Assembly: GCF_017873335.1 (NCBI RefSeq) | Contig: NZ_JAGGKB010000003.1 | Location: 186,001-250,000 of the forward strand | Source: Thermococcus stetteri | GTDB lineage: Archaea; Methanobacteriota_B; Thermococci; Thermococcales; Thermococcaceae | Reading direction: 5' to 3' | Length of the DNA stretch: 64,000 bases | In this document: positions 31,064-31,739 of the stretch, one piece after another | Numbering within the stretch: the stretch's first letter is position 1 | Layout of the letters: every line of letters starts with the position of its first letter | Made by a program: the position numbers and the translations under genes | The notes under the pieces: model-generated | The model's input: the letters and a program-made list of their open reading frames with translations, nothing else | The model's database searches: none | Told to the model about the DNA's origin: nothing

Positions 31064-31069
31064 CTTTAC

Positions 31070-31481
31070 TTTTTTCTTCTGAAAGCCTTGCCCTTTAGGG
31101 CGGGGATGCAGTAAACCGCCCAACAGCCTTTCAACAGTCAAAACCCTTTTAAACTTTGGAGTTTAGTAGGGTCTCGAAGAGACCACTCAAAACAACCCGA
31201 TGAGATGAGGGGTTTCATCGTGTCCTCCCGCTTTGGGAGGAAGACGCCGGCAGGCGTCCCTGAAGGACTGCCCGTTTGGGCAGTCAAGAACTGGAGTTCG
31301 GTCTCTAAGCGATAACCCCAATCCGGCTTTGGCCGGTAGGGGTAACGGGCACAAGACCGTGCCCTCGGGCTGAACCGAAACCGGCAACGGGAGTAGGAAA
31401 TGAGTGCCCGTAAACCGAACCGCCCGCTGGCGAGGGGTTAATTCGCTGGAACCCTCGCCCTTCAAGGCGGGAAGGAGGTCA
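31070..31481 (+). mobile_element. Non-autonomous IS200/IS605-type element without tnpA/tnpB
   Basis: It begins after a TTTAC target with TTTTTTCTTCTGAAAGCC and a palindrome, GCCCTTTAGGGC, and ends with CTCGCCC-TTCAA-GGCGGG-AAGGAGGTCA. The same left end follows TTAC at the 1118-1162 scar. No terminal inverted repeats or target duplication are seen, as expected of single-strand (HUH) transposition. The 412 bp interior has no ORF of any quality but a series of strong hairpins. It is flanked by two disrupted loci. Confidence 0.7.
31171..31481 (+). ncRNA. Candidate omega-RNA (reRNA) of IS605-derived element
   Basis: Successive stem-loops: GGTCTC-GAA-GAGACC (31171-31185), CCTCCC-GCTTT-GGGAGG (31224-31240), GACGCC-GGCA-GGCGTC (31243-31258), GACTGCCC-GTTT-GGGCAGTC (31266-31285), a compound ACCCC/CCGGC hairpin (31315-31343), GGGCAC-AAGACC-GTGCCC (31347-31364), and the end palindrome at 31453-31473. 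In TnpB systems the guide RNA ends at the element's right end and continues into flanking DNA, which would make the sequence after 31481 the guide. No tnpB is in the window. Expression is inferred. Confidence 0.55.
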
Positions 31482-31739
31482 GCCGGATGTTCCCGTGGTC
31501 ATTGAATACCATGGAGAAAAGTGCTCCGGGCGTTTAAGGGCCAAACCTCAAGGTAAGATCACCGCGAAGTTCACCGTTGAGGAAGCCTCCCTCAACAGGC
31601 GCTCCGGTGAGACTTTTGAACTTGGGAAGTTGGCAATTTCACTCTGCTCGTCCACGTGAACGAGGCTGATAACTATACATTCACAGTCGAAGGGAACAAC
31701 AACGAACGGCTTTCGAGTGGAGGGCTTGTGGTTGGTTAG
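31482..31739 (+). pseudogene. C-terminal fragment of an unknown gene, truncated and frameshifted
   Basis: From the element boundary an open frame reads DVPVVIEYHGEKCSGRLRA, then GKITAKFTVEEASLNRRSG and FELGKLAI. It shifts near 31640 to FTLLVHVNEADNYTFTVEG and LSSGGLVVG, stopping at 31739. The beta-rich sequence suggests a secreted or surface domain. There is no start codon and the 5' part is absent, consistent with disruption by the adjacent element. Its end overlaps the convergent PIN gene by 4 bp. Confidence 0.55.

Follow-up and report, generated by a model that had tools for sequence, protein, structure and literature searches.

A gene-free IS200/IS605 element of Thermococcus that probably carries a trans-acting TnpB guide RNA

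Introduction

Altae-Tran and coworkers reportedly described, in 2021, stand-alone omegaRNAs of IscB in Ktedonobacter racemifer, which occur at loci free of nuclease genes and are presumed to act in trans. In the TnpB lineage, the last ~16 nt of the guide RNA (reRNA) of ISDra2 derive from the DNA that flanks the element (PMC8612924). Searches of the open-licence literature found no account of a TnpB omegaRNA element that stands alone. Among archaeal noncoding RNAs, the HgcC family has seven loci in Thermococcus kodakarensis, five of which are transcribed; HgcC1-3 are located within the transposase genes TK0298, TK0495 and TK0850, HgcC4 (at TK1679) and HgcC5 (TK1820) lie outside such genes, and HgcC1-5 are all transcribed (PMC4247193).

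The element considered here lies in a 64-kb stretch of DNA (G000:C3:186001-250000; hereafter the window, to which coordinates without a prefix refer) from a genome of 2.03 Mb in 7 contigs (G000). It is a gene-free IS605 element that occupies 413 bp (31070-31482, plus strand) after the sequence TTTAC. The reading preferred here, with a probability of roughly 0.64, is that of a non-autonomous IS200/IS605 element whose sole cargo is a promoter-driven omegaRNA of ~315 nt that would be used in trans.

Gene content, copies and insertion site

The original prediction had located the element correctly except for its right boundary, which was moved one base to the right, to 31482, because the final G of ...GGAGGTCAG is common to every copy and the sequences differ only beyond it. 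There is no conserved ORF within the element (the longest mechanical ORF, on the minus strand, has 92 aa), and the possibility that the interior is part of a protein gene was rejected for this reason. No tnpB ORF was found inside or adjoining the element, and the usual overlap with the 3' end of tnpB is missing. The earlier view that the element has no ORF and neither TnpA nor TnpB therefore stands, and its description as solo holds for gene content; it fails for number, since the element belongs to a repeat family with ten copies in this genome.

These ten near-full-length, ORF-free copies in the 2.03-Mb genome, the window copy included, match at 91-100% in nine cases and at 78% in one, and compared pairwise they are 93-99% identical with the exception of one at 74-78%. 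L006 and L008 are 98.8% identical, which indicates that copying was fairly recent. Full-length relatives are present in many members of the genus. A scan of GTDB with a conserved interior pattern returned five MAG contigs only, a scan of viral contigs with another pattern returned no match, and a repeat-pair search on the element region returned no pairs. Given the ten copies, the full-length relatives in the genus and the paired helices with double-sided changes described below, the element is not a product of chance.

One solo copy (L006, G000:C2:78593-79000) splits a gene for a MoxR-type AAA ATPase; when its flanks are joined the frame is kept, but ~16 residues appear to be missing at the junction as judged by eye from unaligned sequences. 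The same genome possesses micro-elements of ~45 bp (1118-1162 on the minus strand of the window, and L024, L027 and L028) in which an IS605 left end is fused to the right-end hairpin (TTAC followed by TTTTTTCTTCTGAAAGCCTCGCCCTTCAGGGCGGGGAGGAGGTCAG), and these are apparently the smallest insertable form of the element family.

The right flank of the window copy lies immediately after TTTAC in G016 and G057 (TTTAC followed by CCGGATG, with no element, in G016), and sequences matching the left flank reach the insertion point in G006 and G040 (at 72%). The right boundary is thus confirmed to the base and the left boundary is less firm. The left flank matches G006 and G040 and the right flank matches G016, G012 and G057, which are different genomes, and no single genome has both flanks together. 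Since the flanks never occur together, the locus probably arose from recombination between two copies or from a later rearrangement; the insertion may lie at a rearrangement breakpoint, possibly one produced by recombination between two solo copies. The reading frames of joined flanks provided no general proof of an empty site.

Ends and target site

The left end (31070-31115, plus strand) includes a subterminal hairpin, CCTTGCCCTTTAGGGCGGGG and GATGCAGTAA, and is the same in elements with tnpB or with both tnpA and tnpB (L151, L154, L156, L162-L164, L022 and L023). In the alignment of copies and relatives the left-end consensus reads TTTTTTCTTCTGAAAGCC, hairpin, GATGCAGTAA, and there is a single right end, GGAGGTCAG, which in the window closes a segment with a palindrome (31448-31482, plus strand) common to all solo copies and to the right ends of tnpB elements. 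The target TTTAC (31065-31069, plus strand, in the left flank) is a candidate TAM. Solo elements lie after TTAC in 36 of 49 cases and after TGAC in 5, the corresponding numbers in their own genome being 8 and 2.

By their left ends, two types of tnpB element can be told apart in the genus, and both share the right end with the solo elements. Type 1 elements, which include the tnpA-plus-tnpB elements L162-L164, have the solo-like left end and lie after TTAC in 12/12 scored cases, and type 2 elements have another left end (CAAGCCTCGCCCTTCAG..GCG.GG-TACGGTG) and lie after TGAC in 11 of the 12 scored. Because their left end and TTAC target agree with those of type 1, the solo elements appear to derive from type 1. 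Two marks of the IS200/IS605 family are present: palindromes in subterminal position at either end, as in autonomous tnpA/tnpB elements, and an insertion point 3' of a short, fixed sequence, TTAC. Ends of this type had been proposed for the element, together with a comparison of its right end with those of tnpB-containing elements; that comparison was carried out, and type 1 tnpB elements of the genus, like those with tnpA, were found to share both ends and the target. The outcome that had been named as refuting the proposal, tnpB elements all lacking these ends, did not arise.

The omegaRNA scaffold

The tnpB elements terminate in ~180 nt with the order ATAACCCC, hairpin, TAGGGGTAA, hairpin, long stem-loop, right end. 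A covariance model (R1) built from aligned tnpB-linked omegaRNAs alone matched the window at 31310-31482 over model positions 1-181 (106.4 bits, E 3.9e-34). Up to E 10, the sole other match in the remainder of the 64 kb was an antisense echo of the palindrome that scored 7 bits, so that the covariance search that had been suggested yielded one credible match. Since transposition requires the right end, which could by itself account for the R1 score, a second model (R2) was built from the tnpB-linked scaffold without the right end, and it matched at 31310-31417 (51.8 bits, E 2.4e-13). Full-length matches were obtained in 70/70 sources searched with R1 and in 34/34 with R2. Across its own genome R1 identified 23 omegaRNAs, of which 13 are at tnpB genes or their remnants and 10 are in solo elements. 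The original prediction of a TnpB guide-RNA scaffold read toward the right end is supported by these matches, with and without the right end.

The complete scaffold (31310-31482, plus strand) constitutes the last 173 bases of the element, and model position 181 of R1 aligns with 31482, its last base. The scaffold stops at the right end of the transposon, and the flanking DNA would therefore be the guide. By analogy with the ISDra2 reRNA, the predicted guide segment is CCGGATGTTCCCGTGGTCAT (31483-31502, plus strand), the ortholog of which in G016 is TTTACCCGGATGTTTCGG.

One further element (L091, G044:C70) is a chimera of a solo-type 5' domain and a tnpB-type omegaRNA that scores 180.8 bits to R1, far above other solo elements, which suggests that the solo 5' and omegaRNA modules recombine.

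Promoter-like block, 5' domain and covariation

In an alignment of 45 solo elements, columns 71-90 (CG-AAACCCTTTTAAA) form a conserved island with 1.34-1.42 bits per column, as opposed to 0.60-0.96 and 0.75 bits per column in the blocks that flank it. In the window this island contains a putative archaeal promoter (BRE/TATA), GTCAAAACCCTTTTAAAC, at 31137-31154 on the plus strand. Promoters of T. kodakarensis consist of a BRE and a TATA box located a median of 23 bp upstream of the transcription start site (PMC4247193), a spacing that places the predicted RNA start at the first hairpin, ~31168-31176. Between this predicted start and the scaffold are ~145 nt of hairpins that form an element-specific 5' RNA domain (31168-31309, plus strand; five hairpins). 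The covariance model of the domain (R3), which matches the window copy at G000:C3:217168-217311, found matches in 55 of 94 Thermococcaceae genomes, distributed over 5 of 6 genera, and a search of 49 tnpB loci gave no credible match (best E 0.014). Within this sample, then, the 5' domain belongs to the solo family alone.

Across the 45 solo elements, 95.1% of cells at 62 named pairs are paired, a percentage that is biased upward because the structure was partly derived from the same alignment. Double-sided changes, which are less affected by this bias, occur in 120 cells versus 40.0 +/- 6.0 in shuffles (0 of 500 shuffles), and pairing falls to 36-57% when partners are slid by 1-3 columns. This strong covariation, which extends to the 5' domain, points to selection on RNA structure. 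G.U outnumbers A.C in the helices by 66:16 in the omegaRNA part and by 73:30 in the 5' domain, counts in which the cells are non-independent and the helices come from the plus-strand prediction; the excess fits an RNA read on the plus strand. In two species, solo elements at an identical site (L105 in G009 and L112 in G052) have flanks that are 98.0-99.6% alike and are themselves 88.5% alike, with entire hairpins swapped for alternative paired versions, a pattern suggestive of gene conversion or of one copy having been replaced by another. As a comparison for selection on the element this orthologous pair is uninformative, the element being more diverged than its flanks.

These observations bear on an alternative in which the element is a plain MITE: a deletion derivative, mobilised by TnpA, in which part of the omegaRNA persists because of its overlap with the right end and the RNA has no function. 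Non-autonomous IS605 derivatives are common, IS605 transposition requires the ends only, and the 45-bp micro-elements with nothing but ends reside in the same genome. The same micro-elements suggest that the interior is dispensable for insertion, and an RNA without function does not readily account for compensatory changes in interior helices across diverged elements, a conserved promoter-like block, the excess of G.U over A.C or a specific 5' domain that persists across 5 genera. The plain MITE is accordingly considered unlikely, although it is the strongest of the competitors.

A modified scaffold could instead serve as a decoy or inhibitor that occupies TnpB, protecting empty sites or competing with tnpB-bearing elements. 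The P3 stem-loop of the solo scaffold is unlike the tnpB-linked type, and with the extra 5' domain it sets the solo RNA apart from the tnpB-linked omegaRNAs examined. On the guide side, however, the right end and the adjoining stems agree with the tnpB-linked RNAs and an open guide position is kept in each copy, which makes a decoy a rather improbable explanation.

Relationship to HgcC

At gathering thresholds Rfam identified nothing in the window. Below them, HgcC (RF00062) matched 31345-31492 (E 1e-4, 28.6 bits, gathering score 50) and sot0042 matched the scaffold. In G012, taken here to be T. kodakarensis, R1 located omegaRNAs at 250.97, 424.92 and 743.25 kb, each beside a TnpB match, and a further one at C1:1474313-1474479 that has no TnpB match beside it among the matches listed. 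This last locus is a 5'-truncated solo element (it matches positions 159-412). Gene number versus position of the first three loci extrapolates TK1679 to ~1.47 Mb, and by position and R1 match C1:1474313-1474479 is thus very probably HgcC4, which would make HgcC4 a member of the solo family and its transcription an indirect sign that solo RNAs are made. HgcC5 was not found by R1 in G012, unless it corresponds to a weak fifth match at 1.124 Mb, a position that does not fit TK1820.

HgcC RNAs were first described simply as noncoding RNAs, some of them unlinked to transposases (PMC4247193), and the RNA might likewise be an independent structured RNA that is unrelated to TnpB and rides in an IS605 element, a notion made very hard to sustain by the full-length match to a model of tnpB-linked RNAs alone, with or without the right end.

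Possible partners and proposed mechanism

Across 61 genomes of the genus, a TnpB match is present in 30 of the 31 that have an R3 match, and at least two TnpB matches are present in 17/17 that have at least two R3 matches. Copy numbers of solo and tnpB elements correlate with a rho of 0.72 with no phylogenetic correction, a correlation that could reflect a shared transposase only. The gene for TnpA, the Y1 transposase, is rarer, occurring in 15 of the 61 genomes.

The window's own genome encodes three full-length TnpBs (L013, L014 and L016), all of type 2 (after TTGAC or TGAC); another ORF, at C5:129039, is TnpB-like and has 394 aa. The three proteins possess RuvC-I and RuvC-III motifs (GIDLG and NADLVGAFNI) and an E ahead of the zinc-finger cysteines instead of at the usual RuvC-II position. 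In these and other Thermococcus TnpBs the position of the RuvC-II glutamate reads VVGYPKG, and a conserved E is found in (N/G/D/S)EAFTS.(T/S)C. TnpBs with rearranged active sites exist, and the catalytic glutamate has apparently been relocated in this group as judged from its motifs.

The type 1 copies read in this genome (L022, L023 and L173) are disrupted, with no intact type 1 tnpB among them, and the single tnpA (L173) is disrupted and carries a stop. Since the intact TnpBs checked are of type 2 and the element lies after TTTAC, the system may be inactive in its own genome now. The ends of contigs C4, C5 and C6 of G000 fall within tnpB elements or close to them and truncate several tnpB copies, so that the assembly gives minimum values for copy number. 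Use of the solo RNA in trans is most plausible in genomes with an intact type 1 TnpB and is uncertain here.

For the preferred reading of a trans-acting omegaRNA, transcription would start near 31170 and continue through the right end, with 16-20 nt of flanking DNA taken as guide, and a TnpB encoded elsewhere would bind the RNA. TnpA would peel the element out, the TnpB-RNA complex would cut the empty site consisting of TTTAC plus flank, and repair from a sister copy would restore the element. The element would thus depend on TnpA to move and on TnpB to be kept, and, with a complete guide scaffold and no gene, it is probably parasitic on the RNA-guided nuclease and the transposase of its relatives. 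A broader and more tentative version, with somewhat less than even odds, extends this to an RNA-only hyperparasite across the Thermococcaceae, a mobile element that encodes no protein and, equipped with a promoter and a TnpB guide RNA that acts in trans and has a special 5' domain, would hijack the TnpA and TnpB of related elements. The promoter-like block, the 5' domain, the copy number and the kinship with HgcC are additions to what had been predicted.

Comparison with known systems

If the preferred reading is correct, trans-acting omegaRNAs would also be present in the TnpB (Cas12) lineage, and there would be a natural case of split guide and nuclease genes, as in CRISPR. The old archaeal noncoding RNA family HgcC would be tied to TnpB guide function, and HgcC4 of T. 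kodakarensis, a model archaeon, would be a system in which the idea can be cleanly tested.

The solo scaffold is homologous from end to end to the omegaRNAs linked to tnpB in the genus and, like the guide RNAs of ISDra2 and its archaeal relatives, stops at the right end with the flank as guide (PMC8612924). Unlike these RNAs, it has no overlap with tnpB and possesses its own promoter-like block, an extra ~145-nt 5' domain and another P3 stem-loop. HgcC resembles it in the match at 31345-31492 and in that HgcC4 and HgcC5 lie outside transposase genes yet are transcribed, and differs in that the window scores 28.6 against a gathering score of 50 and the 130-position Rfam model lacks the 5' domain. 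Non-autonomous IS200/IS605 derivatives (MITEs and PATEs) share the IS605 ends, the TTAC target, the lack of genes and the multiple copies, whereas the interior of the solo elements is no filler, being occupied by a structured RNA with covarying helices and by a promoter-like block. The IscB omegaRNAs of K. racemifer are likewise reported from loci without a nuclease gene and presumed to be trans-acting, but belong to the IscB/Cas9 lineage, and the solo elements are archaeal, of the TnpB/Cas12 lineage and a family-wide mobile element. The element is a combination of known parts, an IS605 derivative and a type of guide RNA, and not a new kind of system; what is new within the literature searched is a coherent, structured, promoter-bearing and family-wide element of the TnpB lineage.
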